A stretch of 64,000 nt of DNA from positions 375,425 through 439,424 of the forward strand of contig BCKL01000002.1 in the NCBI GenBank assembly GCA_001600635.1. Direction: 5' to 3'. The notes under the pieces were generated by a model. It ran no database searches. It saw nothing but the letters and a program-made list of their open reading frames with translations, and had not been told where the DNA came from. This document shows, piece after piece, positions 786 to 63,445 of the stretch; positions within the stretch are counted from its first letter, which is position 1, and the number at the start of each line of letters is the position of its first letter. The stretch is from Leucosporidium creatinivorum. Lineage: Eukaryota; Basidiomycota; Microbotryomycetes; Leucosporidiales; Leucosporidiaceae. Both the position numbers and the translations under genes were made by a program.

Positions 786-2324
786 ATGGCCTCCTCGACC
801 TCCTCCACCGATGCTACGTCCAGCTCGGTCACCCTCGCTAGCCTGCCCGCCGAGCTCCACTCGGTCATCGCGAGGATGTGCCGAGACCAGGATCGTCGAT
901 ACAAGGAGAGGACGTCGCCTCCTGCTAAGACTCGTCATCTCGAGGTCGCAAAGGCAGGCGCGACTCAGTGGGATGGCAGAAGCTTGAACGCTCTCTTCCT
1001 CGTCAGCCGAGAGTGGCAGACAGCAGCCGCCCCCTTCCTCTTCGAGGTGAGCCGCAAGACCCCCAAACGCGAGTCAGACCAAAGCACTTACTATTGTGCA
1101 CTTCAGTCGATATCGTCGAGACGTTGCTGCGACAGCCTCTTCGTCTTTAAGATCCTCTCGACCTTCGTCAAGCACATTCGACACGCCGCCTTGGACACCC
1201 AGCCAGCTATCACGACAGCCTTTGTCTCGATGCTACGGGCTCTTCCACTCCTCGTCAACCTACGTCGCCTCAGCATCACCAGGTCGGCATTCTACTCACT
1301 TCTCGGCTTCGGGTGGAGCTCGAGCCCACCTCCCACCTCCGAGCAGCATCTTCACCGAGAAGCTCTCCTCGCATTCCTCCCTTCGGTCGGAGAGCTCATT
1401 CTCGATAGCGTTGATGCACCTCACTTGGCTTGGATCCTGCCCCACGTCTCCAAAATCGGTCTGAGCCGCCTGGAAATGGCCGTTAACCTCGATGATACGC
1501 AAGCGTCGGCCATCNTCCAAGCGCGAAGTGCTCTCGCCCAGCTCANCGGGCTCAAGNACTTGTNGATACGCNACCAGGGCGTNGAGTCGCATGGGCTCCT
1601 CGGCNGGATCTCCTCCATCGCATTCGAGCTGGAGAGCTTGGAGCTGCTCGCTTTCCCGGGCATCTTCGACGTCTACACCTGGAGCTTCATCTGTCGCTTC
1701 TCAGGTACGTTGCACACCCTGACGATTGAGCTCGACTCGGAGGCATTCGTGGGGAGCGCGCTGGCCGAGCAAGCGGATGGCTCGAGGGGAGCGTTGGTTC
1801 GCTTCTCCACTTTGCGCCATCTCCATCTCAGAGGCACCACGACCTTCATCACCACTATTACCCATCTCCTTTCCACCTCCCCTGTAACCACCTTCGACAT
1901 CGCCGTCGTCGGCTACGACCATCTCGTCGAGGACGACCGCGATCCGCTGGTGCAGGTTCTCGCTTCGGCCGCCAAGGGCTGGACAGCCTCGCTGATGACG
2001 ATGCATGTGCACCTTGCATTGGAAAGCGCACACAGCAGGGCCTTCGTACGAGCCGCCAACGCCTGGTCAATGGTCAGAGAAGTCACTCAAGCCGCCTCCG
2101 AGGTTGTTACCTTCATCGAGCCTCGCTACGATGCCTTCCAAAATCGACCAAAGGAAGCTGGAAGCGTCGGACTCGAGAAGGCGTGTGATGCTGCTACCGA
2201 CACGCTCAAGTTCGGCCTCGACTTCTCGGATCGCCTGCTCGCGACGAAGGATTATGACGGGGCGAAGGCGTTGCTTGAGCTGCTGGTGCCGTTGAGGGGG
2301 AAGATGCTGAGGGAGAAGGATTGA
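786..2324 (+). CDS. F-box-like/LRR-like family protein, copy 1
   Basis: The protein begins MASSTSSTDA and has an F-box-like helix region (SLPAELHSVIARMC) at residues ~19-35, then a WDGRSLNALFLVSREW segment like the second half of F-box domains, then a long leucine-rich region with irregular LRR-like spacing, ending GKMLREKD. Exons are 786-1046 and 1107-2324. The 60-nt intron 1047-1106 is a multiple of three and reads open if retained, but the same intron is present in all five family members, so I treat it as an intron (492 aa). Seven single N bases lie between 1515 and 1605. If truly an F-box protein it would be a substrate adaptor of an SCF ubiquitin ligase; that role is inference from a weak motif. 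Nearly identical to the copy at 53,844. Confidence 0.8.
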   Translation: MASSTSSTDATSSSVTLASLPAELHSVIARMCRDQDRRYKERTSPPAKTRHLEVAKAGATQWDGRSLNALFLVSREWQTAAAPFLFEVSRKTPKRESDQSTYYCALQSISSRRCCDSLFVFKILSTFVKHIRHAALDTQPAITTAFVSMLRALPLLVNLRRLSITRSAFYSLLGFGWSSSPPPTSEQHLHREALLAFLPSVGELILDSVDAPHLAWILPHVSKIGLSRLEMAVNLDDTQASAIXQARSALAQLXGLKXLXIRXQGXESHGLLGXISSIAFELESLELLAFPGIFDVYTWSFICRFSGTLHTLTIELDSEAFVGSALAEQADGSRGALVRFSTLRHLHLRGTTTFITTITHLLSTSPVTTFDIAVVGYDHLVEDDRDPLVQVLASAAKGWTASLMTMHVHLALESAHSRAFVRAANAWSMVREVTQAASEVVTFIEPRYDAFQNRPKEAGSVGLEKACDAATDTLKFGLDFSDRLLATKDYDGAKALLELLVPLRGKMLREKD

Positions 2325-2616
2325 TGGGGAGTAGCGAGGTGTTGCTCGACTCTGAAGATGCTGCTGTGCGGGAGGAGCTGCTGTCGAGGCTGAACATGGG
2401 CGCCGAGAAGGAGCTGAGCTGATCGGAATCGAGTCTTTGCTCTTCGCTGTACGTTCCAGATGCGCTGCGAATCAGTTGAGATCGCGAAGAGAGAGCTGCT
2501 GCCAAGCGAGGTAACGGCATCGGCTGAGGCTCGACTGCAGATGGCGAAAGTGGACGAGGCTGCGCGGCTCGGCGATCGACAGCGGCCGACCTGGGAGGCT
2601 AGAGCAGCAGAAGCGA

Positions 2617-2790
2617 GGTCAGCTCAAGCTGCACCACGATACGTAGCACTGTCTTCAACCTCGACAAGCACCCCCAACGCACCTTCTGCATCGCGACAGA
2701 GTTCTTCGTAGGGTTCGAGCCGTTCTCGTAAAACGTCAGGCGCTGTTCTACCTGTCCACGGAGGACCTCGCCGAGCTCAGCGTCGGGAGT
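2617..2790 (-). pseudogene. NOP56 exon-intron fragment (duplicated)
   Basis: This segment is nearly the same as 4,160-4,318, inside NOP56. It holds almost all of the 94-nt NOP56 exon 4225-4318 (encoding the [13 protein letters not shown] region) plus about 65 bp of the following intron, in the same orientation as NOP56. Because intron sequence is included, it was copied as DNA and not through mRNA. It has no flanking NOP56 exons and cannot make a protein. Confidence 0.85.
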
Positions 2791-3073
2791 GTCACAGAAC
2801 TACTCTTGACGAGCTCGCCGATTGCAAGCTATCGGGTCGGTCTCCTCGCAGCCAGGGAAGCTTGATCGCGAAGGAAGAGCTCGGCGCTCGAATTATCGAA
2901 GCCTCGACGGCTCACTTTCGCTGCTGCTCTTTCTCGCTTCTTCTCGGGTATTAAGCGCGGTGTACGAGTCAATTACATCCCTTCGAGCCTAATGCACTAC
3001 GGCCAAGTCTTTCGCATCTCTCCGCGCCCTCGGGCTCATCTCGGCGAACTCGGAAAGGGAGGGAGGGGGTCAT

Positions 3074-3159
3074 GCCGCCTGCTTCTTGGACCGAGTCATC
3101 TCAGAGCTCATGCTCGATGCCTGGTGAGTAGAGAGACCATCGCTCTTGCTTTCTGTGAA
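3074..3159 (+). repeat. 86-nt conserved 3' block (copy 1)
   Basis: This block is identical base for base to 55,808-55,893 and matches the reverse strand of 61,400-61,487 except for a two-base insertion. Adjacent sequence is clearly less conserved. It contains a good splice donor (CTGGTGAGTAGAG). Function unknown; a 3' UTR processing element or a recent conversion patch are both possible. Confidence 0.75.
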
Positions 3160-3583
3160 TCGACTAGTCCGAAAACTCGAGGATACCGGTTCCTTCGAAC
3201 TCGCCCGAGAAGGGTTGGGTGCGAGTTCGGGGAGGCCGTGAAGCTTGTGTGTGTGTGTGTGTGTGTAGGGGAGGGTACGGCAAGGAGGGAGGGGAGAAGA
3301 GCAGTGAGTCAGAGCAGCAAAGCTCGCCCGAGTGCGAGAAGGAGAAGGAGGGGTCAGCGAGCGATGGGGTGGGTGGGAAATCTAGTCCGCGTTTTTGGTG
3401 GGGTGGGAGTCCTGTTGTACACGAAATATGGGCTAGCCCCGTGAGAAAGAGAAGAAGGGAGGAGGGTGGAGGGAGGGTGGTGGTGGTGGTGATGAAGACA
3501 GAGACCGAACGAAAAAGCACATGTGGAGACGAGGCGAGGCGAGGCGAGATGTAGGCGAGTAGGACAGAGAGGGGGGAGGTGGA

Positions 3584-6057
3584 TCAAGCCTTGACCTTCT
3601 TCTCCTTCTTAGCCTTCTTCTCCTTCTTCGATGGTGTCTCGACGGCGTCGGCAACCTCGCCAGCGGCCTCGGCGGCCTTGGCCAGCTTCTTCGCCAGCTT
3701 CTTGGCGGCCTTCTTGGCGGCCTCATCGTCCTCGCCTGCTGGCTCGGCCTGTAGTCGTGTAGGACATCACGGAGAGAGAGGGGAGGTAGAGAGAAGGTGA
3801 AGGCGAAAGTCAGCGCCAATCTCTCTTTCTCGCTCGTCGGGCAGCGCGGCCGCCGAGAAGAGCTACATACCTCATGCTTCGACTTCTTGCTCTTCTTGCT
3901 CTTCTTCTCCTTCACGGGAGTCTCCTCGGAGTCATCCGACTTGCGCTTCTTCTTCTCGACGGGAGCCTCGTCAAGGTCCATGTCGCCCGACTCGGCTTGC
4001 TCGAGCTTGACAGCGTCGAGGGCCTGTGGTGGGAGGTGGTGGGAGTGCGAGAGAGTGGCGTGATGAGGGAGAGGAGTGGTGGTGAGGCGATGAGGAGGGT
4101 GGGAGGGCGAGCGAAAGGCGAGGGAGAAGATGGACGAGGGAGGGGAAAGAAGGAGCAAGATCAGCTCAAGCTGCACCGCAATACGTAGCTCCGTCTTCAA
4201 GTTCGACGAGCACCCCCAACGCACCTTCTGCATCGCGACAGAGTTCTTCGTAGGGTTCGAGCCGTTCTCGTAAAACGTCAGGCGCTCTTCTACCTGTCCA
4301 CGGAGGACCTCGCCGAACCTGGTGCAAAATTCACGGGTCAGCTCGATGTACAATGGCGCGAATGAGCCGCAGAGGAAGAGAGAAGGAGGAGAAGAGGGAA
4401 CGAACTTGGTCGAAGGGGCGTCGGAGAAGCAGTCGATCCTCGAGGCGATGGAGCACTTGTTGGCGAGGAAACGCGAGATGCGGCCCTTGTTCTTGGTGCC
4501 GGCGCGGCCGATGAAGGTCGACTACGTGCAGTGTGGGAAAGGAGAAGGTCAGCGCTAGAGCTCGACACGAGGAGAGGAAGGAAGCGCCAGCGGTTCGAAC
4601 GACGACCGAAGCCCCTAAGGCTCCTGTCGCGCTACAGAGAGGGAGAAAGAGAACGCACGTGGTAGATGAGTCCGTACTTGGGGGTGTTTCCCTTGGTCTT
4701 GAGGGCGCGGAAGAGGGCCTTCTCGGCTCCGAGGATCTGAACGGTCGAGGCGGGGTACTTGGACAAGTTGGTGAGGGATCCGGCGTGGGAGATGAGGCGC
4801 GCTCCAACGGTGTCGCCGATGAGGGAGGCGAGGTTGGGGGCGACGACGCCCATCTTCTCCGAGAGGTAGGCCTGGAGCGACTTGCGGTACTCGAACAGGT
4901 GGATCACGCGCGAGGCAAAGTTGCGGATGTTGAGGTGGTCGATCGGGGAGATGTCGGTTCCCATGGAGGCGCGCGAGGCGTCGACAATGTTGCGAGCGAG
5001 GACGTCGTTGTCCTCGAGGAGCTCGGCGAGGCCCTCGACCGAGGAATCGGTGAGGGTCGACTTGTCGCCAATGAAGGAGCACACCTTGGCGTATTGGTAG
5101 TTGTCGGGGACGACGCGGACGAGCTCGGGGAAGTGCCATCCATACCACTCGCGCACGCGCATGGCAAAAGTGTTGACATCCTTGTCGAGCTGGTCGAGCA
5201 GGGCGATGGCCTGGATGATCATGTTGTCGGAGCGGTTGACGTTGAACTTTACCTTGGCGCGCGAGTAGGCGTGGCCAAGTCCCAATTGCGAGCGCGACAT
5301 GTCGCCCATCTCGAGGCCGGCGAGGAGCTTCTCGGCGTGGAGACGGATGCCACGGATGATCTCGAGCGAGCGCTCGGTGGCATCGCAGTCGATGTCGAGG
5401 GTCGACTTGATGGATTGGGCGAGTCCACGCTCTTCAACACCGAGGACGACGCCGGCCTTCTTGCCGAGGTTGAGCTCGAGGAGACCTTGGAGGAACTCGT
5501 GAACGACACCTGCGAGCGAGCGAGAAGGGTCAGCGAGAGCTCGGATCTCGACCTGTTCTGCTGCAGCCAGTGCTCCAAATCATCTCCCTCTCATCCTCTG
5601 ACCCTGTAGCATGCTAGCCACCCTCCTACAACCCAAAAAAATCGCAAAGCGAGCTTTGGGTTTGCGTCTAGGCAGAGCTGCTTCGGCGCCGATTCGGATC
5701 CCCTCCGCTTCTTCCGTCTCCAAGCTGTACTTCGACCGAGTGGAATATAACATACCCTCCGAGACATCGTTGGCGACCTCGAGAGCGTGAGCGGCGTCCT
5801 GGAAGGGGACGAACGAGACGAGCTTGACCATCTTTGAGAATTTGGCGAGCTCGTCGACCGACTGCTGGACCTGCTGGGAGCCCTTGGCGCCAATCTCCTC
5901 GGCGAACTCGGAGGAGAAGAGGGCGAGCCCTGTAGCGCTCTCGAAGAGGATCTGTAGGACAGCAGGTTGGAGTCAGATTGGCTGGAAATGCGTGGAGAAA
6001 GATGCGGGCTTTGGAGCTTGGTTTGAAGCTGGGAAAGAAGCGTACGTGGGTTGCCAT
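3584..6057 (-). CDS. NOP56: Nucleolar protein NOP56, box C/D snoRNP core
   Basis: NOP56 is a scaffold of box C/D snoRNPs that guide 2'-O-methylation and pre-rRNA processing in the nucleolus. The spliced protein starts [16 protein letters not shown] (exon 1 is only about 12 nt, ATG at 6057), has the NOP5 N-terminal region, then the NOSIC/Nop core with [38 protein letters not shown] and [12 protein letters not shown], and a lysine-rich KKE/KKSKK tail ending at TGA 3584-3586. [11 protein letters not shown] and the basic C-terminal tail fit NOP56/NOP58; the wording of the core fits NOP56 better. About eight introns; the one at 4025-4224 is unusually long (200 nt) and its start is duplicated at 2617-2790. 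Divergent from SEC7 and convergent with F-box copy 1. Confidence 0.95.
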
Positions 6058-23975: not shown

Positions 23976-25479
23976 TCAATCCTTATCCCTCAGCATCTTC
24001 GCCCTCAACGGCGTCAAGAGCTCAACCAGCGTCTCGGCGCCCTCGAGATCCTCCGTCGCTCGCATCCTGCCCGACTCGGCGAGCATATGCCTCAGCACGT
24101 CGTCCACTCCATCGCAGCGCGTCCCCGTTTCTTTCTGACGGACACCAACGTCGGTCCCTTTGCGATGGAGGAAGGTATCGTAGGGGCGAGGGATGGAGAG
24201 GGAAATGCCCGGCCTTCTGGTGAGCTGAGTGAAGTTGGCGACGGTGGAGGGTCCTGTGTATGATCTGCTACCATTGGGGTAGATGATGAGGCGGAGGTGG
24301 CAGAAGCGCGCGAGGGTCCTGTGGAGGTCGTTTAGAGCGGCGCGAGCTTCGGAATGGGAATGGGTCGACTTCGACTCGCGATCCAGATGGATGTGCAAAG
24401 AGGCTAGGGGAGCGGCTTTGATGAGCGAGATTTGGGAGGAGATGTGTTCAAGCGTTCCCCGCAAGTCAAGACGTCGAAGCTGGGGGAAGGCCGAGCTTCT
24501 AGCCCTCACGTATTCGCCGAAAGCCGGCAGCGATTCGGCGACTAAGTCCGTGATCATGGGGTCGAGGGCAACGAGGGTGTCTGCGAAGTGCTCAACAAAC
24601 GTCCAAACGCCTCCAGTGAACGCATCGTGCGTGCTGGAGAAGTCGAACGAGCTCAGCTCGTTCGACTTCCACCGTCCTGTGTCGACGGTGTCCTCCAAAG
24701 CGGCGGCAGCTGTCGTCTCCATGTTGTAAAGGCCCAGCTTACGAAGGTGGTAGAAGTTTGCGATGACCTCGACTGCCGCACAAGTGTCCTCGGTGTCGTC
24801 CAGGTCGAGTTCGAGAGCGCGGAGCTGTGTGAAGGGGGGTAGAACCCATGCTAGCGACTCCGGCGAGAGATCTGGCAGGGCCAGATCCTCGATTTGCGTA
24901 GCTGAAGCGATCATGGCGTCTCGATACCTGGCCTGCTTGTCGGTAGGGGTCTCGCTTCCTACGCCGAAGAGCAAGAGGAACGGCTTGAAGTCGAACACCA
25001 TGCGCTCGAGGTTCTTGAAGTGCGGCAGGAACCGCAAGAGGGAGACCTGGTCCTCGAATGTTGCTCCAGCTGCGAAGCGAACTCCTGTGACGGAGGTGCC
25101 GTAGCGGCGAACGATGTCGAAGGTGAAGATGTCGTCGCTGCAACCCCGAGAGGTTACGTCCTGCGAGCCGTTTGACGCATGAGCACGCGTGCGAGTAAGC
25201 ATCTATGTGAGGAATCTAACTCACCTTGAAGAACTCCACATCGGCGCATGAGCGCCATTCTCGGCTCAACGAGCGCAGAGCAACGAGACTTCGACCGTTC
25301 CAATCACATCCACTCAGCAATGTATCCCACTCCTCGGAGGTGTAAGCTTCCACTCGCTCGCAGTATTGGTGGTCTTGCGCTGACGCCAAGCGCGCAATAA
25401 CACCTTTCAGCTCCCGAGGCAGGTCGCCGAGCGAGGTGGGACGCCGAGCGGGAGGATTGTCGGCGGAGGAGGTAGACAT
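23976..25479 (-). CDS. F-box-like/LRR-like family protein, copy 2 (diverged)
   Basis: Family member starting MSTSSADNPPARRPTS (ATG at 25479), with the F-box-like helix LGDLPRELKGVIARLA and the later NGRSLVALRSLSREW. Exon 1 is 25225-25479 (85 codons); the intron is 25161-25224; exon 2 is 23976-25160 (395 codons with stop), giving 479 aa. The intron sits at the family position, right after the FF-K end of the F-box-like part, phase 0. The rest is leucine-rich (LRALELDLDD, RKLGLYNME, LRRLDLRGTLEHI) and ends MLRDKD. It is the most diverged of the five and shares little 3' flank. Convergent with UTP14. Function inferred only from the weak F-box resemblance. Confidence 0.8.
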
Positions 25480-26118
25480 GGTGCGAGGGAGAGCGCGAGA
25501 GGCTAGGGTGATGAGGGTCAAGCTGTGCTTGCGCTAGGCAAAGAGCGGCCAGCGAGATTGGGGGGGATGAGGGGACGGAGGAAGGAGATGGGAGCAGCGA
25601 CGGGCGATTCAAAAGCTGTAGGGGTGTTGGAGGGTCAGCGGCAGCTCAAACATAGTGTTATATTCGACGCACTTGTAGCGAGCGCGAGAGTCACGAGCAG
25701 CGAGCTTTCAGAGCGAGCGAGCGGGTTCGAGCGCCCTGTTCGAGCAGATCATAATCGTCAGCAGGGAGCTGGAGGGCGATACAGAGCAGCACAAAATCAC
25801 CAGCAGCTTCGTGTTCAGTCGCCGGTGTTGTCCTGGTCTAGCAGCAGCGAAGTCGAGAGCGAGCGAGAAACGAGGTGAGCGTAGGAAAGCAAGAGGTAGG
25901 AGCGCGTCGAGAGCTGAGGAGGGTGCACTTGATGCGGAGGCGGCAGCGGCTGCAAGACGCTATCTGAGCTCGATACGGATCTCTGACCCACTGCATAGCT
26001 TTCTGCAGCTCTCTAGCCTGTCGCTCGGCGCTGCTCCCCCTTTCGCTCTCTCGCCGCTGCTCAAGTCGTTGGAACTTATGGGCATCATAGGGAGCGATAG
26101 ATAGAGGGGATTACTTTG
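25480..26118 (-). promoter_or_regulatory. Conserved 5' leader of F-box copy 2
   Basis: Reverse-strand sequence here matches the leader of copy 1: the CACCAGCAGCTTCGTGTT / AAGCTGCTGGTGAG donor near 25,797-25,815, the exon-like block near 25,690-25,735, and the distal end at about 26,116 that mirrors window positions 1-80. It places the distal boundary of the duplicated unit near 26,118, although the copy 1 side cannot be seen. Confidence 0.6.
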
Positions 26119-26314
26119 GCTGTGCCGCAATGTGCGCGCTCTCATCCTGCGCTGCAGCTCATTCTCGGCGACGGGTTCACCTTCGCCGAGCAGAGCCGTG
26201 CGCCGTGCTGGTCATTCGGCTCACTTTCGCACTCACTGAAACGCTGAAGATGATGTGTTACTGCTTTTGAGTTCATGTCTGTACACTAAGAGCCTGCTTC
26301 CGCTGCTCGTCGAC

Positions 26315-32634: not shown

Positions 32635-32666
<32 letters not shown>

Positions 32667-32810: not shown

Positions 32811-32878
32811 CGATTCTTGCCCCCTGGGGTGCGAGCGAGGACGGGTGCGAGAAGGAGCAGCCGAGCTGACATCTGGAA

Positions 32879-46479: not shown

Positions 46480-47368
46480 ATGCTCTCTCGACCCAGCACT
46501 TCACTAACAGCAATCACAGCCCTCGTGCTGCTCGCCTCGCCTGCCCGTGCTCAATACTGTGAGTGTCAAGTTGGAGCGAAGAGGCGCCTCTGACGCCACT
46601 TCTTGCTCGTCAAGTCGAACCATCGCGCTGACCTTGTTCTGCTGCTCCATAGACGGAGGCTACCATGGAAATGGAACGAGCTACGGAACTCGTATCGGAA
46701 TCGGTGAGTGGTAGCTGCTTTAGTACAGCGTGACGAATCGCTCATATTTGGGCTCGCTCGTCTCGCCTTGCAGGAGTGGGAGTCGCTCTCGGTGTCGCCT
46801 TGATCATCTTCGGCATTGGTGAGTAGTCTACTATCCATCTCCTCGTCCTACGCTGACCCGCTGCACCCCAATCTCAGGCTTCATGATGCGCCGTCGCCGT
46901 GCCCGCGCGTTCAAGGCCGCCTACCCCGTCCAGGCGTACCAGGCTCCAACTACCCAGCCCCAGCAGTCGTATGCACAGCAGCCTCAACAGCAGTCGTATG
47001 GCGGGCAGCAAGCGTACGGCAATCAGCAGCAATACGGCAGCTACAACAATGCCAACTCTTACGAGATGGGGCAGGCTCAGCAGGCGACTGGAGGAGCAGG
47101 AGAGAACTACCAGGCGCCGCCGGGATGTACGTTTAGATCATAATCATCGCCTTCGCGATTTCGTGCTGACCCGCCTCGAAACGCAACAGACTCGGGCTAC
47201 CGCCAAGACTCGAGCTCCGGCGCCAACGCCAACGAGCAGCCCTACTACCCTCCTCCTCAATCCCCACCACCCGCCGCCAGTACCACCACGGCACACTACG
47301 CTCCTCCTTCCGGCCCGCCGCCACCCCAGACCGGAGGGTACGACCCTACCAACGTCTCTCAGAAGTGA
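46480..47368 (+). CDS. Small single-pass membrane protein, Gln/Tyr-rich tail
   Basis: Unknown family. Exons join to give a signal peptide (MLSRPSTSLTAITALVLLAS...RAQ), a short glycosylatable lumenal part (YHGNGTSYG, with NGT), one membrane segment (GIGVGVALGVALIIFGIGF), a basic stop-transfer MMRRRRARAF, and a cytosolic tail rich in Gln, Tyr, Pro and Ser (QPQQSYAQQPQQQ, YYPPPQSPPPA), ending GGYDPTNVSQK with TGA 47366-47368. Introns of ~60-90 nt follow a GTGAGT donor each time; about four exon joins. About 200 aa. The layout (signal, single pass, disordered tail) resembles fungal membrane-anchored sensors or adaptors, but I infer no function. Confidence 0.78.
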
Positions 47369-47465
47369 AGAGCCGAACCGAAACAAAGAGCCTTGTAATC
47401 CTTTAGATTGGCCAAATAGCTGTGTTGGAGTAGCTTTATGTATGACTGGTGAACGATGCAGCGTT

Positions 47466-47477
47466 TGTCACGTGACA
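47466..47477. promoter_or_regulatory. Perfect 12-bp palindrome with CACGTG core
   Basis: TGTCACGTGACA reads the same on both strands. The inner TCACGTGA is a classic bHLH (Cbf1/SREBP/TFE-type) site. It lies 74 bp upstream of the ATG at 47551 and 98 bp past the previous stop, so it likely belongs to the 47,551 gene. Confidence 0.55.
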
Positions 47478-47550
47478 CCTCGAGAGGCTCCTCGGACTTG
47501 CTTCGTTCGCCCGACTTCCTCGAGGTCCTTCTTTCCCTCCTGCCGCTCGA

Positions 47551-48627
47551 ATGAACGCTCCGCTGCTTGATTTGACGGTCACGGCGCGCCTTGAGGGTGA
47601 GCTGCTTGACTTCAGAGCTTCAGCAACGCTGACCTCGTTAAAGGCGAGAAGGAGTTGAGGTTCAGGTGAGCCGCCTCCGACCCTCGCCGCTCGGCGCCGA
47701 ACTAACGTTCACCTCGATTAGGAAGCGAGTGCTCTGTTTCTGCGCCGTTCTACCGCTGTTCGAGATCGTCGCCATCGTCAGCTTACTCGCCGTCGCCGAC
47801 AGTGAGTCGACCCCTGGCCTTCGCCGAGAAGGGCTCGCTGACCTTATCGCTCGCCAGTCGTGCCCGTCGACGTGCAGACTATCTCGTACTGGCTCATCAT
47901 CGCCAAAGTACTCAATGCACTCATGCTGAACATGGGGTGGTTCGCCATTCGCAAGAGGGGTACAGGGAGGGTGAGCGAGCGCCGGTTCGGTCGTTTCGGC
48001 TCGCCGCTAACCTAGTCTTTGCCTGCAGCATCATCTCGTGCGTTCTTCTGAAGAGAGGGATTGATTCTCCCATCGCTCACATACTCTCCTTCTTGCAGTA
48101 TGCTCTGCTCGGCATGGCGGTCGGTCGTTATCGTTTCGGCTCGGCGCTCGATCCTCCAGCTTTGCTGACTATCCCCGCTGCTACAGACCACCGGGGTGAC
48201 CACCATGATCGGTAACGATTGGTACATTTTCAGTCTCACGAGCCACCAAGGCCGAGTCGAAGCGATCTGGTGAGTTCGGCTCGGCACTCGGAGCAGAGAT
48301 AGTCGGCGCAGGCTGACTTTCTACTCACTCAGCTCCCTCGCTCGACAAGCTAGCAACACCGGTATCTCTTGCCACTCGCGATGGCTCCTCCTCACGCTCC
48401 TCATGACTGTCGTCAGTCCCCTCCTCACTCTCGGTCCCCGGTCCCTCGGCGTTGAGCCCGTCTACCTCGCTAACGACCACTTTCTCGCGCAGTTCCTCGC
48501 CCTCCTCGGTGCCGCCAATGTCACCATGCTTCTCTTCGCATTAAAGATCATCTCCCACGGGCACAAGAGGAAGGTGGCGATGGTGCAGAGTGGGGAGGAG
48601 GATACGCCCGAGAACAAGCTTTGGTGA
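47551..48627 (+). CDS. Multi-pass membrane protein with micro-exons
   Basis: Unknown family. Starts MNAPLLDLTVTARLEGE; then about five hydrophobic segments: CFCAVLPLFEIVAIVSLLAV, YWLIIAKVLNALMLNMGWF, YALLGMATTGVTTMIGNDW (weak), WLLLTLLMTVVSPLLTL and FLAQFLALLGAANVTMLLF, with the tail HGHKRKVAMVQSGEEDTPEN and TGA at 48625-48627. The frame is continuous only if a 9-nt exon (48029-48037) and a 21-nt exon (48099-48119) are used, with introns 47971-48028, 48038-48098 and 48120-48186. About 225 aa. Part of a run of four small membrane genes. Function unknown. Confidence 0.68.
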
Positions 48628-48786
48628 AATCGAGTCGCTACACCTCGTGCGCTCGCTGGGGAGCTCCGTGGTCCAGTCCTAGATGCTCAAGAGCAATACT
48701 GAGGTGCATAAGTACTCGAAAATGCGTCTAGCCTCGCCCAACCACCGACACCGAGTTTCCCCCAACCATAATCCTCTGCCCCGCGC

Positions 48787-49931
48787 CTACCAGTCATCTC
48801 CCCGCCTCCCAGGCTTCTCGTTATAATCGTCTTGATAGCCTCCGATGCCCCCGTTGGCGCCGTAATGTCCTTGAGCGTGCAGACCTTTCTTCTCGTCGAA
48901 GCGGTCCTCGACGGCGGCGACGACTGGTGGTCAGGGCGGTTAGTTTGCGAAAGTGTGAGAGGGAGGGAGAAGCTACGAACCTCCTTCCATGGCCACGTTG
49001 ATGAGGCCGAGTAGTAGAAGACCCTGCATACGGATGATCCGTCAGAGGGAGATGCTCGGCGAGCGAGGAATGGAGGAGCACGACTCTGGACTTACGAGAA
49101 CTAGAGCAATGATGGAGGTCGTGCTCCCTCCGCAATTGCCTTTTGTGAAGGTGAGACTGTGCAGAGCAGAAAGAGAGGTCAGCGCCAACGCCGAGCTTGC
49201 GCCGAACCGTCGACCTCGAGGTAAAACTGGGTCTGAACGCACCAGTACTTCTCCCCAGTCGACCCAACTATAACCCAAAACGCCATGTAGAGGTAGCTGA
49301 TAACGAAGTATAATCAGCTGGGCCCGAGTCCTTGCTCGGCGAACCGCTCCGAGCTCGGCGATGCTGCTTACCTGCCCACGGTAATGAACATCGCAAGTCC
49401 GACGACCGTGACGACGTATTTAAGTCCCCATCCATCTGTAGCGCAAAAGCCTCGATAAGCTTGCTGAGACTGGACAGCGGCGGAGAGGCTTACGGAGAGT
49501 GTGCTTAGTCCGAAGCTCGTCTGCCCTCTTCTGACCATTCTTGGCATGGTAGCCCTCACCCTTCTTGATGGCGATCAAAGCGGCAATACATGCGAGGAAG
49601 TCCAACCCGCAGCACACCACGCCGGCAATGGCTGGGTACAGCAGGTAGCTTGGGAGTGCTGCGGGATCGCCGAGAGTTGCAAGTCAGCGAGGAGCGTGCT
49701 TTGCGAGCCTGAAGTGATGCCAGCTTACTGTCTTTGCTCTGTAGCTCCAACCAGAGCACTGCAAGCTCGAGCGAGTCAGCTTTCATCTCCCGGGCTCGCG
49801 CTTCAAGGAGTCCTCCGCCGCGACTCACACACTCCTCCCAATGTGCCCGAACCAAGAGCCAGCAGGATTGGAATCGAGTAGCGCATGCCTGCTCCTGCAA
49901 ACATGTCGGAGTGCTTCTTGGCGATGCCCAT
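48787..49931 (-). CDS. Multi-pass membrane protein, unknown family
   Basis: Starts MGIAKKHSDMFAGAG (ATG 49931), with hydrophobic stretches near IPILLALGSGTLGGVCNAL, YLLYPAIAGVVCCGLDFLAC, YVVTVVGLAMFITVGSYLYM and IIALVLGLLLLGLINVAM, about four passes. An exposed loop has KGEGYHAKNGQKRADEL, and the tail is charged and glycine-rich (HAQGHYGANGGIGGYQDDY, EKPGRRGDDW) ending TAG 48787-48789. About seven introns; spliced length near 220 aa. Convergent with the 47,551 gene, with a short 159-bp gap. It may be a distant relative of the next gene by size and topology, but I cannot align them convincingly. No function assigned. Confidence 0.7.
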
Positions 49932-50204
49932 CGTGGGTTGTTATCGAGGCGCGCGAGTTGAGGGGAGAGAGAGCAGGCGCTGATGCGGAGGGAGTAGTTG
50001 GCGAGAGAGCGAGCGGTGAGCTGTAAGAAGCGAAGGGAAGCGGCGAACGACGAAAAGCTGTAGCTCAACACAGCAAAACCCTCGATGAGGGGGCGAAACG
50101 GCGAGGAGTTGGCACCGCTGGCCTCGGACCGCCGCGCTCAGGCGTTCGTTCGCTTCCAGGGCGAAATCTGTAGTTCAATAGACATCTAGCTAGCTCTAAA
50201 CATA

Positions 50205-51269
50205 TCAAGCATCGTCTGTATGCTTCTTCTTGCGATGCCCCCAGTGGTGATGATGCTTGTGCGCCGAGCCGGACCCCTCTGGATCTCGGGGATCCTCGAG
50301 GTAGAGGATATGCCTCATGTAAGACACTATCGAGAGGATGATGGTAGCGAGGTTGGATAAGACGGCCAGCTGTGGAACAAAGCGCATGGGTCAGCGCGAT
50401 TCGGTGCAGGGAGAGGGTTTGGCGATGAGCGGAGGGGGCTTTCGAGCGCACAGTACGAGTCTCGGCGATGAGGAGAGCTTTCGCGAGAGACGAGAAGGAC
50501 TTACTACTATTCCACCGATCAAGACCTTCCGGTCTTCCCCTATGGCCGCCGTGTTGGCTCCGAGGAAGAAGCACACACTTGCGCCGAGCGAGCTGCAGAA
50601 GCAACGCGGGTCGGTGACTGATCTAGGAGAGGCTCAGTACAGATTAAGTGGTACTTACAGAGCCCACAAGAGCTACAGAGAAGGGCGATGAGGGGAGGTG
50701 AGCCTCCGGATCCGAACGCCGAGCAAGCGCCGAAGCTCTGCACTCACCGACAACGGCCACCCAAGGTCAAGCTTCGAGGTGATAAGCTTCTTCAAGCTAA
50801 TACAGAGCACCGAAGCAGCGATGTATACTGCTTCGAGCCCAATGAACGCTGCGGTGGTCAGCCAGAGCGCTGCGAAGGTGCAAGTCAGCGAGATTCCGCC
50901 TACACAGCAGCGAGCGGTGAGAAGCAGATACGGTCAGCACTTACTGGCATCCATCTCAAAATGCTCGAAGGCCATGAAAGCCACCAGCATCAAGTCCAGC
51001 CTGCGAGAAGAGCGGTTCAGCACATCTCCGCTCGCTCGGTGCAGTCGGCCGAGCCTTACGTAGGAGCAGTGATCTGTAACACTATAGTTGTCAGTGTCAA
51101 CACCATCGACCGATGCTTGACAACTCACACCAAGGCCAAGAAACGCGATGTGATGGTTGAAACGCCAATTATTGGCCGGGTCGAAAGGCGGGACAGTCCA
51201 CCAGTGCTGAGGAGCGTCTACAGCCCCATCCTCATCTGAAGGAACCTGCTCGTGACGGTGCTTGCCCAT
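50205..51269 (-). CDS. Multi-pass membrane protein, His-rich tail
   Basis: Starts MGKHRHEQVPSDEDGAVDAP (ATG 51269). Hydrophobic segments: HHIAFLGLG...ITAP, LDLMLVAFMAFEHFEM, ALWLTTAAFIGLEAVYIAAS, LLWALSLGASVCFFLGAN and VLSNLATIILSIVSYM, four or so passes. The tail AHKHHHHWGHRKKKHTDDA is rich in His and Lys, ending TGA 50205-50207. About five introns of 60-80 nt. The four-helix topology resembles MARVEL or tetraspan membrane proteins, but I see no signature. It may bind metal through the His tail (inference). Small intergenic gaps on both sides, same strand as the previous gene. Confidence 0.68.
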
Positions 51270-51587
51270 GGCGAGTCGGGTTCAGGGTTCGAGCGATGAA
51301 TGCGAAGTCAACAGACGTTGAGCTTTCGGACGTCCTCGGCTCCGCCGTTCGGGCCCCTTGACGAGGAGACGTGCAGAAAGTCGAAGCTGAGGAAGACGAT
51401 CAGAGAGCCCCTCGAGAGACGGCTCGTTGAAGCCATCCGAGTCAGCGAGCCGGCCCTTTGACGAGCCATGGTCGAACCGACCAGCTGGCCGAGATGATCG
51501 CCGAGATCTCGTCGTCGACCATCCTCGCAAGCTCTTCCCAGCACCATGGACAGATTGTGAACGTATGATTGGCCCGCATCTCTACGC
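51270..51587. other. Gap between membrane-protein gene and proteasome alpha-5
   Basis: A 318-bp gap on the minus strand, holding the promoter of the 51,269 gene and the 3' end of the alpha-5 gene. Nothing else recognised. Confidence 0.35.
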
Positions 51588-53043
51588 TCATGCCTCGGTC
51601 CTGGCAATCACGGCCTTCAACTCCTCGGCGCCGAGAATCTTGAAACCCGCCTTTGGCACGACCTGTAGGGGGACGAGCGGCGAGGAGGGGAGACGACGAG
51701 ACGGAGAGTGGGAAATGGTTGATGCGAGTAGGACAGGAGCAAACGTGAAGAAGAGGTCAGCTCGGTCGCTTCTGAGGCGAAGGAGCGACGACATACCTGA
51801 GCCAGCTGCACGTTGTTGTGGTCGAGCTTCTCCTCCATTACCTGCTTCAGCACCTTGAGCGAAAGCACCTGAGCCTCTTCCAGCGTCATCGACTGCGACG
51901 TGAAAGGGATCAGCGACCGAACCGCTGGAGAAGCGAGCGCGGAAAGCCAGCGCACCTTGTTGTACGAGTCTTGCAGCTCGTTCTGCGCTCCCTCACTTCC
52001 CGAACCGATAGCCTTGGCGTCGTAGCGCATAAAGGTTCCAGAAGGGTCGGCGTGGTAGCTGGAGCGAAACCGAAAGGTCAGCTCGGCGAGTACTTCGGCG
52101 CGGGCAAGGAAGCTCACAGCTGAGGTCCACCGCTCTGATCGTAGCCGGCAATGAGGAGAGCAACACCGAACGGCCGGGACTGTGAAAACGAACAAGTCAG
52201 CACAGAGCTACAAGGCGACAGCGAGCAGCGGCCGCACCATCGAAGCCTCCTCCTCGTCAGCTCCCTCTCCGAAACGCAGCGCCAAGTCGCAGACGGCTTG
52301 GGTGACAGACTCGACCTTGATGGGCTCGTCGTAGGTGAAAGTGTGGTTCTGTGGACGTAGAGAGGGTCAGCGCAAGCTCCAGGGGCCGCGTCATGCTGGG
52401 CGTTCGGCTCGAGGCGAGCTCGGCGCGCTTCAAGGCCAGCACGGAGGTCACGGAGGTAGACAGTACATGACCGAAGCGCCTGCGCCCCTCCTGCTCTCCT
52501 CGAGGCTTCACGCGCAAAGCAAGAGCAGCTCACCTGGGAAGTCACTCGAGCATGCTCGACCATAGTCCTCGCATCGGCCGTCAGTCCACTCATAGCGCAA
52601 GCGACGTGCGAATCAATCTCCATAATCTTCTCCACCGAGTCCGAGTCGAGCAGTGGGCTCTGAGTGCGCTTCTCGACGGCGAGGACGACGCCCTGCGAGG
52701 TTTGGATGCCGACGGTCGTAGACCCGAGCTGTAGGACAACAGAACAGGTCAGCTATATAGTTGCGAGACGACAGTACCGCCCAAAGCTCACTTTGATTGC
52801 CTCAATGGCGTACTCGACTGCAGAGAGCGATTCCCCAGTTAGCGACGCGTTCTGCCAGTTGGTAGTGCGCATGCTGTAATTCAAGCTCACCTTGGAACAG
52901 CCTGCCTTCGGGAGAGAAACTCGAGACGGAGCGGTCGTACTCTGATCGGCTACAGGACGGCGAAACGCAGGCGAGGAGAGGGAAGCGTGCGTCAGCTTGC
53001 TGTTGCTGGCCTTGAGAGCAGAGGTGGCTCACCTGGAAAACAT
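51588..53043 (-). CDS. PUP2: 20S proteasome subunit alpha-5
   Basis: A non-catalytic ring subunit of the 20S core proteasome. It starts [22 protein letters not shown] (the alpha-subunit YDR...[13 protein letters not shown] signature), then [66 protein letters not shown] and [20 protein letters not shown], ending AVIARTEA (TGA 51588-51590). The SPLL and GSTTVGIQT wording points to alpha-5 (Pup2/PSMA5). The exon-1 part is just 10-11 nt (ATGTTTTCCAG, ATG at 53043). About seven introns. Divergent from F-box copy 4, whose start is 800 bp away. Length ~245 aa, usual for the family. Confidence 0.94.
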
Positions 53044-53843
53044 GATAGTGGGGCTGAAGAGGTGTAAAGTGCTACAGAAGTTGTGCTTGAGAGTCGAAGT
53101 GCGAAGCGAGCGAGAGGTGGGAGTCCAAGCCTCGTCAGCCCAACTCCGCAACTCTCTTGGCCCTCGACTACAACCTTCGATTTCTCGGTACAACACTTCG
53201 GAGCTTATTGAAAGCTGCTCTACTCAGCAGCGCACTCGCCTACACTTGAGGTTCTCCTCTTCGTCGCCGTCGGCTCTCTCTCTCGGCGCTTGCTCCGGCT
53301 TTCAGGTCGTCGCTCTCGCCTTCGCGTTCGCTACTGGACCAGGACGGCACAGGCGCTTGTCGACGAAGCTACTAGTGAGTCTTTGATGCTCCTCATCGCA
53401 CTACAGCGCCCGGCTGACCACTCCTGCTCTCGACCAGGACGCTCGAACCCGCTCGCTCGCTTTCTGAAAGCTGCTCGCGCTTCTCGTCCTCGCTGCAGGT
53501 ACGCAGATAGCTCAGACTGCCCTCAGACTACCGCTGACTCTTCATTTACCCCTACAGCCCGCTCCTCGCTCATTCGCTGCTCCCCCGTCGCCGCGTCGCT
53601 GGTTCCTCGTCTTTCTACACGCGCGCTCAGAAGCTACTCACAGAGCTCAATCAGCTTCAGCACCGTGAGCTCGACCTGCCTGCCACCCCGGAGAGCGCTG
53701 CTGACCCTCTTCGTCGACAGCCCACCCCCGCTCGGCTCACCTCATCGCTCGCTCGCCAGCTCGGAAGCTCCAGCCACGACACTCGTCTCGCTCGAGCTCC
53801 ACCCCACATCGCTTCCGACTACACCTGCTTCGCTCACAATACA
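53044..53843 (+). promoter_or_regulatory. Leader of F-box copy 4 and PUP2 promoter
   Basis: An 800-bp gap between outward-facing genes. From about 53,290 on it matches the other F-box leaders (GGACCAGGACGGCACAGGCG, GACGAAGCTACTAGTGAG donor near 53,370, the GACGCTCGAACCCGCTCGC block near 53,440, and the GACCCTCTTCGTCGACAG acceptor near 53,720). The leftmost ~250 bp does not match, so the unit is cut short on this side and now serves the proteasome gene's promoter as well. Confidence 0.6.
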
Positions 53844-55382
53844 ATGGCCTCCTCGACCTCCTCCGCCGATGCTCCGTTGAGCTCGGTCACCCTCTCCAGC
53901 CTGCCCGCCGAGCTCCACTCGGTCATCGCGAGGATATGCCGAGACCAGGATCGTCGATACAAGGAGAGGACGTCGCCTCATGCTAAGACTCGTCATCTCG
54001 AGGTCGCAAAGGCAGGCGCGACTCAGTGGGATGGCAGAAGCTTGAACGCTCTCTTCCTCGTCAGCCGAGAGTGGCAGACAGCAGCCGCCCCCTTCCTCTT
54101 CGAGGTGAGCCGCAAGACCCCCAAACGCGAGTCAGACCAAAGCACTTACTATTGTGCACTTCAGTCGATATCGTCGAGACGTTGCTGCGACAGCCTCTTC
54201 GTCTTTAAGATCCTCTCGACCTTCGTCAAGCACATTCGACACGCCGCCTTGGACACCCAGCCAGCTACCACGACAGCCTTTGTCTCGATGCTACGGGCTC
54301 TTCCACTCCTCGTCAACCTACGTCGCCTCAGCATCACCAGGTCGGCATTCTACTCACTTCTCGGCTTCGGGTGGAGCTCGAGCCCACCTCCCACCTCCGA
54401 GCAGCATCTTCACCGAGAAGCTCTCCTCGCATTCCTCCCTTCGGTCGGAGAGCTCATCCTCGATAGCGTCGAAGCACCTCACTTGGCTTGGATCCTGCCC
54501 CACGTCTCCAAAATCGGTCTGAGCCGCCTGGAAATGGCCGTTAACCTCGATGATACGCAAGCGTCGGCCATCATCCAAGCGCGAAGTGCTCTCGCCCAGC
54601 TCAACGGGCTCAAGTACTTGTCGATACGCGACCAGGGCGTGGAGTCGCATGGGCTCCTCGGCCGGATCTCCTCCATCGCATTCGAGCTGGAGAGCTTGGA
54701 GCTGCTCGCTATCCCGGGGATCTTCGACGTCCACACCTGGAGCTTCATCTGTCGCTTCTCAGGTACGTTGCACACCCTGACGATTGAGCTCGACTCGGAG
54801 GCATTCGTGGGGAGCGCGCTGGCCGAGCAAGCGGATGGCTCGAGGGGAGCGTTGGTTCGCTTCTCGACTTTGCGCCATCTCCATCTCAGAGGCACCACGA
54901 CCTTCATCACCACTATTGCCCATCTCCTTTCCACCTCCCCTGTCACCACCTTCGACATCACTGTCGTCGGCTACGACCATCTCGTTGAGGACGACCGCGA
55001 TCCGCTGGTGCAGGTTCTCGCTTCGGCCGCCAAGGGCTGGACAGCCTTGCTGATGACGATGCATGTGTACCTTGCATTGGAAAGCGCACACAGCACGTCC
55101 TTCGTACGAGCCGCCAACGCCTGGTCAATGGTCAGACAAGTCACTCAAGCCGCCCCCGAGGTTGTTACCTTCATCGAGCCTCGCTACGATGCCTTCCACA
55201 ATCGACCAAAGGAAGCTGGAAGCGTCGGACTCGAGAAGGCGTGTGATGCTGCTACCGACACGCTCAAGTTCGGCCTCGACTTCTCGGATCGCCTGCTCGC
55301 GACGAAGGATTATGACGGGGCGAAGGCGTTGCTTCAGCTGCTGGTGCCGTTGAGGGGGAAGATGCTGAGGGAGAAGGATTGA
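53844..55382 (+). CDS. F-box-like/LRR-like family protein, copy 4
   Basis: Nearly identical to copy 1 (about 20 differing residues of 512, leaving out the N positions), starting MASSTSSADAPLSSVT and ending GKMLREKD. Exon 1 is 53844-54104, the 60-nt intron 54105-54164 is base-for-base the same as in copy 1, exon 2 54165-55382; 492 aa. F-box-like region SLPAELHSVIARIC, then leucine-rich body (LLVNLRRLSITRSAF, LRHLHLRGTTTF). No N bases here, so this is the best reference for copy 1. The leader is much less similar to copy 1 than the coding region. It lies between two proteasome genes (alpha-5 and RPT3). Confidence 0.85.
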   Translation: MASSTSSADAPLSSVTLSSLPAELHSVIARICRDQDRRYKERTSPHAKTRHLEVAKAGATQWDGRSLNALFLVSREWQTAAAPFLFEVSRKTPKRESDQSTYYCALQSISSRRCCDSLFVFKILSTFVKHIRHAALDTQPATTTAFVSMLRALPLLVNLRRLSITRSAFYSLLGFGWSSSPPPTSEQHLHREALLAFLPSVGELILDSVEAPHLAWILPHVSKIGLSRLEMAVNLDDTQASAIIQARSALAQLNGLKYLSIRDQGVESHGLLGRISSIAFELESLELLAIPGIFDVHTWSFICRFSGTLHTLTIELDSEAFVGSALAEQADGSRGALVRFSTLRHLHLRGTTTFITTIAHLLSTSPVTTFDITVVGYDHLVEDDRDPLVQVLASAAKGWTALLMTMHVYLALESAHSTSFVRAANAWSMVRQVTQAAPEVVTFIEPRYDAFHNRPKEAGSVGLEKACDAATDTLKFGLDFSDRLLATKDYDGAKALLQLLVPLRGKMLREKD

Positions 55383-55985
55383 TGGGGAGTAGCGAGGTGT
55401 TGCTCGACTCTGAAGATGCTGCTGTGCGGGAGGAGCTGCTGTCGAGGCTGAACATGGGCGCCGAGAAGGAGCTGAGCTGGTCGGAATCGAGTCGCTTGCT
55501 TTTCGCTGTAGCTTCCAGATGCGCTGCGAAAGTGTCGAGATCGAGAGGAGAGAGCTGCTTGTGAGTGAGAGCACGGCTTCGGCTGAGGCTCGACTGCAGA
55601 GGCCGACAGATGGCGAGACGAGAAGGCTCGGCGCTCGCTGGCTGGCTTCGCTCGAGTCTCCGCTGCTCTCTTGCTCTCGTTCTCAGCTTCTGGACGCGGT
55701 GTACGAGTCGATTGCATCTCGTCCAGCTTCATCAACTACAGCAAAGAGTCGTTCGCATCTCACCCTCGCGCTCATCTCAGCGCACTCGGACCAGGAGAGA
55801 GATCAATGCCGCCTGCTTCTTGGACCGAGTCATCTCAGAGCTCATGCTCGATGCCTGGTGAGTAGAGAGACCATCGCTCTTGCTTTCTGTGAACCACGAG
55901 GGACGACATAGCGTCCGCTCGAGACCGGCTCCCTTCCAACTCGCCCGAGGAGGGTTGAGTGCGAGTTGGGGGAGGCCGTGAAGCT
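55383..55985 (+). repeat. Shared 3' flank of F-box copy 4
   Basis: Follows copy 1's 3' flank closely for ~100 bp, then with drift, lacks copy 1's ~270-bp extra segment, and carries the 86-nt conserved block at 55808-55893. Homology ends near GTGAAGCTAGTGTGTAGGG (~55,990), followed by a purine-rich tract. Convergent with RPT3. Confidence 0.7.
55808..55893 (+). repeat. 86-nt conserved 3' block (copy 4)
   Basis: Identical to 3074-3159, although sequence right after it differs between the two copies. Confidence 0.75.
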
Positions 55986-61139: not shown

Positions 61140-61934
61140 AGGAGGCGGTGGTGTAGCTAACAACAAAATGGACGTCGGTTCAGCCGTCGACCGAGGTGCT
61201 CGGGCGAGGCGAGGCGAAGGCGCTTCGCTAGCTGACTTTGACTGCTTGACGCTTCCTCTCCACCCCTCTTCTTCTCCCCTTCCCTCTCCTTTCCCCACTC
61301 CCCCTCGCACACAAGCTTCACGGTCTCTCCGAACTCGCATCCAACCCTCCTCGGGCGAATTCGAGGGAGCCGGTATCCTCGAGTTTTCGGACTCGGCGAT
61401 TCACAGAAAGCAAGAGCGATGGTCTCTCTACTCACCAGGCATCGAGCATGTTAGCTCTGAGATGACTCGGTCCAAGAAGCAGGCGGCATGACCCTTTGAC
61501 CCTTTGTTGAGCGCGCCGAGATGAGCGAGAGGGTGAGATGCGAACGGCTCCTTGCTGTAGTTGATGAGACTCCTTGCTGTATTTGATGAAGCTGGACGAG
61601 ATGCAATTGAATTTTACACCGCTTAGAAGCTGAGAACGAGAGCAAGAGAGCAGCGAGAACTCGAGAGAAGCCAGTAAGGCAGCGCCGAGCCTGCTCGTCT
61701 CGTCGTTCACCATCTGCACTCGAGCATCAGCCGAACTCGTTCGCTCACTTGCATGCAGCTCTCGCTTCTCACTCTCGACTGATTCGCAGCGCAATTTGGA
61801 AGGTACAGCGAAAAGCAAGCGACTCGATTTCGACCAGCTCAGCTCCTTCTCGGCGCCCATCTCCAGCCTCGACAGCAGCTTCTCCTCGTCTCATGCGACA
61901 CCTCAAGCATCATCTCGCCACCTCATTACTCTTC
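61140..61934 (-). repeat. Shared 3' flank of F-box copy 5
   Basis: Read on the minus strand it matches the other 3' flanks, including GGTGTAAAATTCAATTGC-type sequence near 61,600-61,620, the conserved block at 61400-61487, and the end GTGAAGCTTGTGTGCGAGG (~61,315). It shares with copy 1 (and not copy 4) the CCGAAAACTCGAGGATACCG part after the block. Right next to the stop of the mitoribosomal gene. Confidence 0.65.
61400..61487 (-). repeat. Conserved 3' block (copy 5), 88 nt
   Basis: Matches 3074-3159 and 55808-55893 in reverse except for a two-base AA insertion (GAGCTAACATGC instead of GAGCTCATGC). Confidence 0.75.
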
Positions 61935-63445
61935 CTAGTCCTGCTCCCTCAGCATCTTCCCTCTGAGCGGCCGCAACAATTCGAGCAGCGCTTGCGCCCC
62001 ATCGACGTCCTCGGTCGCGAGCAGGCGATTGGCGAACTCGACGCCGGAATTGAGCACATCCGTCGCAGCTTCGTGTGACTTCTTGAGCGTGTACGTATAC
62101 TGGTCCTTGAATGGAAGGCGTCTCCCTGAGGTTGCGCCGTGAACTTCAGCTGCGGAACCGCCTGCGAGATCTTCTTGTCCGCCTTGCGGGTTGTCGGCGC
62201 CGGGAAGAACGTCCAATCACCTTTGCCAGCAGCAAGGTAGACATCAAGACGCTTGCAAGTGGCGGACCAGTACTTCAGCGCGAGGGAAGTGAGGTCGCCG
62301 AGAGGTTCGGGCGTCGTTTTGCCGTTGTAGTCGAAGATGTGGAGGTCGAGAGTGACGATGGGTGAGGAGGAGAGGAGGCCGAGAACGGTGGCGATGGAGG
62401 AGGCTGTCCCTTGAAGTCGGAGGTGGTGCAGAGCGGGGAACGCCGTGCTCGGGGGGTCCTCGCTGCTGTCTGTCGGCAGCGTCAGAGCGTCGTCCGCGCC
62501 CATTGGCCCGAGGAGGATTACGAGGGAGGTCAAAGTGTGCGAGGAGGCCTTGACGAAGCTCCAGGTCTCCATGTACAATCGACCGCTCGGGAAGGCGAGC
62601 TCCAAGCTCTCGAGTTTGAACTCGAAAGACGAGGGGTTGCAGAGGAGGCCGCCCGACTGGACATTGAGGTATTGGAGCGACAGGTGTCGGACATCCTTGA
62701 GTCCTCGAAGAGCGTCTCGTGCCGATGGGAGTGAAGGATCGTCCGAGTTGAAGCGCAGGCTGAAGTCGAGGTGTTTAAGGGCGAGTTGGCGAGAGGCGCT
62801 AACGCCCAGGCGAGCCGCTCCGGATTGGCTTCCACTAGCGACAGCTCTGCAACAGACCGAGTAGCTCGAACAAGTGCAGTCCTATGGAAGAGATGCTCGG
62901 CGGTGGGAATCGACCCGGGGCCGAAGCCGAGGAGCGCGATGAAGGCGGAGGGCGTGAGGGTGAGACGGCGCAGATTATAGAGAAAGGGAAGGGAGCGTAG
63001 GAGCGTGACGTGATTGGTGGCTTCCAGGCTCTTGTCGTTCAGAACGACCTTGCGGACGAGCAAGGCGTAGCGAGGGAGGATGGACCACTGGAAGAGGCGG
63101 TCGCTGCAGCCTTTCGAGGAGACAGTCTATGCACGGGAGGACAGGTCAGCGTGAGAGTCAGTTATTTGGAGCGCCCAGGCTGACCTCGAAAATGTAAGCT
63201 GCTGCCACCTTGCTCCAGCTTCGGCTGACGAGGAAGAGAGCGTTCAGACTTCGGCCGTCCCAGTCTGTGGCGCCCGCCTTCGCAACTTCGAGCTGACGAG
63301 CGCGCACATTAGACGCCGTCCTATCCTTGTACCGCTTGTCCTGATCTCGACACATCCTCGCGATGACCGAGTGGAGCTCGGCGGGCAGGCTGGCGAGGGT
63401 GACCGAGCTCGAGGTGGCATCGGCGCAGGAGGTCGAGGAGGCCAT
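61935..63445 (-). pseudogene. F-box-like family, copy 5 (broken by two frameshifts)
   Basis: The first exon 63185-63445 is open (MASSTSCADATSSSVT, SLPAELHSVIARMC, WDGRSLNALFLVSRSW), 87 codons as in copy 3. The intron (63127-63184, 58 nt) has a GTCAGC donor instead of GTGAGC. In exon 2 the family sequence changes frame near 62,775 (after LANSPL) and again near 62,112 (after QPQGDAF), and the final part ends MLREQD with TAG 61935-61937. Both changes look like single-base indels; a sequencing error cannot be excluded. If real, the copy makes only a truncated protein with the F-box-like part plus ~120 residues. Confidence 0.75.

Follow-up and report, generated by a model that had tools for sequence, protein, structure and literature searches.

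The stretch analysed here, a window of 64,000 nucleotides (nt) from Leucosporidium creatinivorum (positions 375,425-439,424 of C2, a 1.74-Mb scaffold and one of 63 in the 27.7-Mb genome), carries five copies of a gene family, each with a leader upstream, whose predicted proteins resemble F-box/leucine-rich-repeat (LRR) substrate receptors. They belong to a local family of at least 21 gene copies that, as we read the sequences, is probably growing and being shuffled by DNA-level recombination within one 262-kb region of C2. The pattern is best explained as a known kind of evolution with one uncommon feature, a noncoding leader that behaves as a stable, exchanged module. Ectopic gene conversion or crossing-over between alike ends would keep those ends alike and would place new bodies behind old leaders, and broken copies would drop out, giving birth and death; no mobile element would be needed for the spread of the family.

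Leaders, bodies and mosaic copies

The family is strongly confined. The genome search that the original prediction proposed, run with window positions 1-3245 (the 3.2-kb unit of copy 1), found further copies in this region only: there were at least 33 DNA matches, 32 of them between 320 and 581 kb of C2, the other a 56-nt match on C28. A protein search gave at least 46 matches, of which 43 fall within C2 318-581 kb and 3 on C17, and two divergent members used as queries added weak matches on C10, C12, C14 and C27. Neither the DNA nor the protein genome searches returned a full copy outside the C2 region, and matches elsewhere were short or weak. Were loci placed at random, 20 further ones would all lie no more than 262 kb from the first with a probability of about 3e-35. 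Gene models could be built for 20 of the 21 copies (g479 has none), and 13 have a full-length open frame; these 13 full genes entered the pairwise counts, 12 of them the trees (g556 omitted) and 10 the fourfold-site groups (g429 omitted because it nearly duplicates another copy, g331 and g556 because they fell in no group). Three leader fragments with no gene model attached lie at C2 323.2, 372.3 and 481.1 kb; that at 323.2 kb borders a scaffold gap, and that at 372.3 kb is some 170 nt away from a gap. Because two scaffold gaps (C2 375,425 and 321,006) terminate in one and the same leader sequence, the assembly may lack (have collapsed) some copies that are nearly identical.

The leader is the best-conserved part of these genes. 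Among the 78 pairs of full genes, median identity is 61% in the leader, 50% in exon 1 and 44% in exon 2 (27% at the amino acid level), with a baseline of 42-47% set by the leader of g556, which fails to match the others. Leaders are closer to each other than are the synonymous sites of the coding sequence; in g320 and g400 the leaders are 87% alike and exon 2 has 0.57 synonymous differences per site. Differences at fourfold sites are 0.22-0.29 in codons 1-44 versus 0.42-0.79 in bins of codons 131-370 in all three groups, and 14 of 14 within-group pairs (which are not independent) differ less at amino acids 1-44 than at 131-370. The last 32 codons are also lower in group A (0.44) and group B (0.27, from 11 sites), and the C-terminus and 3' flank are well kept among the window copies compared. 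The best reading of these sequences is that fast-diverging LRR bodies would lie between ends held alike by conversion or recombination. Identity drops with distance for leader and body alike (Spearman -0.47 each, again with non-independent pairs). We dropped dating by synonymous divergence because, one pair excepted, the silent sites of the LRR bodies are close to saturated.

Approximately unbiased (AU) tests on the 12 genes show that leader and protein trees reject each other (p 4e-13 and 1e-70), and three mosaics were profiled along their length. In g400/g335, the 200-nt windows starting from -1350 to -550 are 88-96% alike, while the bodies share 41-50%, about what unrelated sequence gives, and the last window 59%. 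In g347/g366, the windows starting at -600 and -500 are 94-95% alike and the bodies 40-52%. Copy 1 of the window (g376), profiled in 100-nt windows, resembles g320 in its distal leader (82-99%), g438 in its proximal leader (86-93%) and g429 in its body (94-100%).

Five head-to-tail pairs, 2.4-3.6 kb apart, lie on C2 outside the window, and a block of two genes, one g556-like and one g559-like, at 556.8-560.7 kb is repeated on the opposite strand at 491.8-495.7 kb. Homology starts at about -540, -580, -720, -1340 or -1730 depending on the pair, so that a comparison for sharp common edges found none: the edges are ragged and pair-specific, with flanks of different length in common, although target-site duplications were not scanned site by site. 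Since the introns move together with the leader, and in some pairs with as much as about 1 kb of additional upstream flank, the earlier view that the unit spread as DNA is supported, and the two recombinational means suggested for it, segmental duplication and ectopic recombination, fit the ragged edges, the mosaics and the repeated two-gene block.

Several observations weigh against this interpretation. Saturated proteins and short inner branches can exaggerate the conflict between the trees, in which some supports are only 47-68. The mosaics were picked as examples from a list of matches and not by a systematic scan, and that of copy 1 could be partly an assembly effect, with a scaffold gap adjoining and seven N in the sequence; as for the remaining two, there is one single N in the g335 tract and none in those of g347, g366 and g400. 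Silent divergence is not low in the last 32 codons of group C (0.67) or in codons 45-87 of exon 1 (0.45-0.78). The young pair g376/g429, with 20 nonsynonymous and 6 synonymous codon changes, shows no sign of protein constraint between its members; a ratio of 20 to 6 in one pair is about neutral and does not show positive selection either. Finally, conversion is not seen in progress, and the likeness of the leaders could stem mainly from purifying selection. The comparison of leader with body covered F-box/LRR clusters only, not ordinary gene families of the genome.

Alternative explanations and other F-box clusters

The most serious competitor, which we nevertheless consider unlikely, is that the copies go back to old tandem duplication and were later rearranged with no part played by conversion; the leader would be constrained as a 5' untranslated region (UTR) or promoter, and the bodies would evolve under relaxed or diversifying selection. 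The five tandem pairs agree with it, and part of the leader is probably functional, because a 26-nt motif from it is found again ahead of certain F-box genes outside C2. However, it fails to predict the incongruent trees, the 88-96% tracts that reach -1350, well upstream of the leader, or the small fourfold differences where the coding sequence begins.

The 26-nt motif comes from a comparison with other F-box clusters. Matches between the C2 leaders and the stretches of other clusters are all short (23-87 nt). Most of them coincide with a pyrimidine-rich core, which stands out in C22, in C28 and in one leader of C8 but is weak in C26 and C9; all sequences in this comparison were fitted to the core of copy 1, a procedure biased towards likeness. 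Allowing up to 3 mismatches, the pattern has 61 matches in the genome, 19 in the C2 cluster and 42 outside, and the reversed pattern has 0. Eight of the 42 outside sites are followed within 1 kb, on the same strand, by a match to the F-box profile PF12937 (control 0/42, expected 0.11); four of these eight are on C22, three of which helped to build the pattern, and the C2 count is likewise built in. Hits independent of pattern building are those on C5, C9, C12 and C16 and one on C22, and on C10 another two sites lie ahead of protein matches that resemble the family. As a signal for F-box genes only, the motif was rejected, most of the remaining sites fetched lacking an F-box appearance: among 12 of the 32 remaining sites, one shows a sub-threshold F-box (E 0.014), two are F-box/LRR-like by eye with no Pfam match, and nine are not F-box-like, as judged by eye only and with no domain scan.

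F-box genes group elsewhere in the genome too. PF12937 has at least 149 six-frame matches, at least 136 of them over the cut-off (with 150 of 330 candidates scored), and 65 of the 136 have a neighbour within 25 kb, compared with a mean of 29 and a maximum of 52 in 2000 uniform draws. A second F-box/LRR cluster with a conserved leader of its own lies on C26 at 303.5-333.5 kb (L051, L052), the only other one compared gene by gene. In the ten pairs formed by its five genes, identity is 72-83% for leader blocks and 46-53% for coding sequences, a contrast that favours the leader in that the blocks were selected because blastn found them alike. The same cluster contains an inverted repeat of 348 nt, 98% identical, at 326608-326955 and 329697-330042. 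In the C22, C9 and C8 stretches the longer DNA matches span the leader and the gene start, not the body; the one on C9 is only 68% identical, and a 60-nt match lies further down the C9 gene as well. A doubtful extension is that the genome runs several regional receptor factories, each an F-box/LRR cluster with its own leader and a genome-wide core motif, the leader serving both as promoter or spliced 5' UTR and as homology for exchange. If true, this would be a cassette-like system diversifying ubiquitin-ligase substrate receptors, for non-self or fast-changing targets.

A non-autonomous mobile element with the gene aboard, the last of the means that the original prediction had offered, is very improbable, also in the form of an element that inserts preferentially close to where it came from. 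Copies interspersed in both orientations over a region, and several pairs with homology starting near -720, are what such an element might leave; yet homology starts differ between pairs, so that no shared ends emerge, and the genome searches showed no full unit outside the region. A retroelement neighbourhood was rejected as regards reverse transcriptase, with 0 of the 16 genome matches to RVT_1 in the C2 region. Helitron and hAT searches found nothing, but their positive controls were silent too, and other transposases were not searched for. A mating-type or other non-recombining region collecting paralogues would also present as a large region of local duplicates among ordinary genes, an explanation we dismiss as most improbable, since STE3 matches lie on C25 only and the Homeobox_KN match on C24 only, with none on C2, and F-box genes group on other scaffolds too. 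The STE3-type receptor and Homeobox_KN matches suit a fungal genome, and GC-rich, intron-dense genomes of this sort occur in Microbotryomycete yeasts.

Copies in the window and their predicted proteins

The five copies lie, start to stop, at 786-2324 (+), 25479-23976 (-), 35574-37095 (+), 53844-55382 (+) and 63445-61935 (-), and the coordinates and spliced models confirm their number and their presence on both strands. Their parts, together with one neighbouring-gene fragment, are as follows (window positions):

1-785, + strand: copy 1 (g376) leader; its left end adjoins a scaffold gap
786-1046, + strand: copy 1 exon 1, F-box-like (spliced model)
1107-2324, + strand: copy 1 exon 2, LRR-like body with MLREKD end (spliced model; seven single N)
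2325-3252, + strand: copy 1 conserved 3' flank, containing an insert of about 320 nt
2606-2774, + strand: piece of the neighbouring Nop-domain gene (4148-4316), a 169-nt copy, 93% identical, inside the copy 1 insert
25480-26115, - strand: copy 2 (g400) leader; homology to g335 extends to about 27158
25225-25479, - strand: copy 2 exon 1 (spliced model)
23976-25160, - strand: copy 2 exon 2 (spliced model)
34854-35573, + strand: copy 3 (g411) leader (DNA matches, leader alignment)
35574-35834, + strand: copy 3 exon 1 (spliced model)
35890-37095, + strand: copy 3 exon 2 (spliced model)
53307-53843, + strand: copy 4 (g429) leader, without the distal part present in copy 1
53844-54104, + strand: copy 4 exon 1 (spliced model)
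54165-55382, + strand: copy 4 exon 2 (spliced model)
63446-63989, - strand: copy 5 (g438) leader (DNA matches, flank comparison)
63185-63445, - strand: copy 5 exon 1 (spliced model)
61935-63126, - strand: copy 5 exon 2, broken frame (homology in several frames)

Across the 13 full genes, exon 1 has 79-93 codons with an F-box-like pattern, the intron measures 54-64 nt and exon 2 encodes about 400 LRR-like codons. In all five window copies a modelled intron of 55-64 nt directly follows FLFE, YLFE, YIFE or FFK, which agrees with the earlier claim of a single phase-0 intron at the same place; phase 0 is compatible with 5/5 copies, yet it was imposed by the modelling script, which admitted phase-0 GT-AG introns only and chose the join for best fit to copy 4, and was thus not independently found. 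The MLR(E/D)xD ending noticed earlier is present in four of the five (MLREKD or MLRDKD). It varies in the wider family, where 9 of 13 full genes end in MLR..D and the others in MMREGD, MMKMRD, MMQEEL or MMRAEY. Copy 5 has MLREQD in another frame, its exon-2 homology being spread over several frames, and its exon 2 is either a pseudogene or an assembly error, as far as the sequence allows us to judge. The copies are separated by genes for proteins with Nop, Sec7/DCB, Utp14 and AAA domains, in keeping with dispersal among housekeeping genes, although the dispersal is regional; and the description of the family as interspersed rather than tandem holds within the window but not outside it, where the head-to-tail pairs occur.

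The leader, about 550-720 nt long, has two to three likely introns as read from the alignment, with predicted donors GTGAGT or GTGCGN, a CTNAC-like branch and a CAG acceptor, so that the intron-rich leader first described agrees with the predicted splice signals. A regular expression matched leader intron 1 in 14 of 20 loci and leader intron 2, for which the expression was too strict, in 0 of 20. We do not favour a coding role for the leader, with stops in all three frames of the last 550 nt in 7 of the 9 leaders checked; those of g376 and g429 have one frame free of stops there. It matches no known RNA either: the sole Rfam match in the window is a U6 gene outside the leaders.

Downstream, an 88-nt block is 100% identical between copy 1 (3072-3159) and copy 4 (55806-55893, +), and copy 5 has the same block save for a 2-nt insertion, in a less similar surrounding context. 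The insert of about 320 nt in the copy 1 flank (2578-2910, relative to copies 4 and 5) holds the Nop-gene piece. As we read it, this piece spans an exon/intron junction and so includes part of an intron, which would make it a DNA-level capture; positions 2775-2918 had no match in the stretches compared.

The evidence that the family encodes F-box/LRR proteins comes mainly from profile comparison. Aligned by hhalign with a profile of four of the five C26 proteins, the family profile gives a probability of 87 and an E-value of 3.9e-6 over 295 columns, running from the F-box into the LRRs, and 4/4 of those C26 proteins, from the same genome, match PF12937. An F-box protein also ranks first in a PDB profile search (E 4.2e-6). 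An AlphaFold model from a 3-row alignment (mean predicted local distance difference test score, pLDDT, 63) has an LRR-like solenoid of alternating strand and helix, with mean pLDDT of at least 70 in 22 of the 24 ten-residue blocks of residues 131-370. Set against this, the hidden Markov model check that had been suggested did not reach the Pfam cut-off: the best window protein scored 15.0 against 21.6 bits, only 1 of 10 spliced members gave an F-box match (E 0.12), and the PF12937 genome search placed no site at C2 318-581 kb among the 150 of 330 candidates that were scored. The N-terminal 105 residues of the model, its F-box part, have pLDDT below 50, and the top Foldseek matches are ribonuclease inhibitor and NLRP LRR proteins (template modelling score about 0.35), with the F-box protein COI1 only at rank 33. 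On the profile alignments, we take the N-terminus and body to be homologous to accepted F-box proteins, with a predicted LRR solenoid behind the F-box. Intact proteins would then be substrate receptors of SCF (Skp1-cullin-F-box) ubiquitin ligases with diversified recognition surfaces, presumably expressed from the shared spliced 5' leader.

Apart from the family, the U6 spliceosomal RNA gene at 32610-32710 (+; Rfam RF00026, 77 bits) has some 140 nt away a 1.2-kb block (32854-34021) sharing 77% identity with C2 368,151-369,298; an Rfam scan of four loci gave no match near this second copy. A search for transfer RNA genes found none. Two stretches, 26000-32500 and 46500-53000, are gene-poor, with no open frame above 223 codons in the open reading frame listings.

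Relation to known systems

Plant S-locus clusters likewise hold many F-box genes across one region; in the case of C2, the mating genes searched for are not on the scaffold. In Caenorhabditis, F-box genes likewise form large families; gains and losses differ between species, the genes are concentrated on certain chromosomes or chromosome arms, and tandem duplication is frequent (PMC8665587). Here, by comparison, the genes are mostly interspersed among unrelated ones, the leader is best kept and leader and body form mosaics; the term 'gene conversion' is absent from the main text of that paper. Among fungi, gene conversion is discussed for the multi-copy wtf genes of Schizosaccharomyces pombe (PMC11497594, PMC6526906), which are spore killers, whereas the C2 family is of the F-box/LRR kind. 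For the same domain class in basidiomycete yeasts, a published table for Rhodotorula gives an average PF12937 complement of 34.6 (standard deviation 13.1) in the 15 strains compared (PMC10662464, Table 3), and the six-frame total found here is at least 136, by a different counting method. We found no published description of the C2 family in a literature search that left most subscription papers outside.

A noncoding leader that is better kept than the synonymous sites of the gene behind it, and that is recombined with bodies within a region, would offer a clear example from nature of how a receptor family of eukaryotes can exchange modules. It raises the testable question of whether fungi diversify F-box receptors as plants and animals diversify nucleotide-binding LRR receptors (NLRs), and the young pair g376/g429, the intact copies and the C26 cluster are material for such a test.

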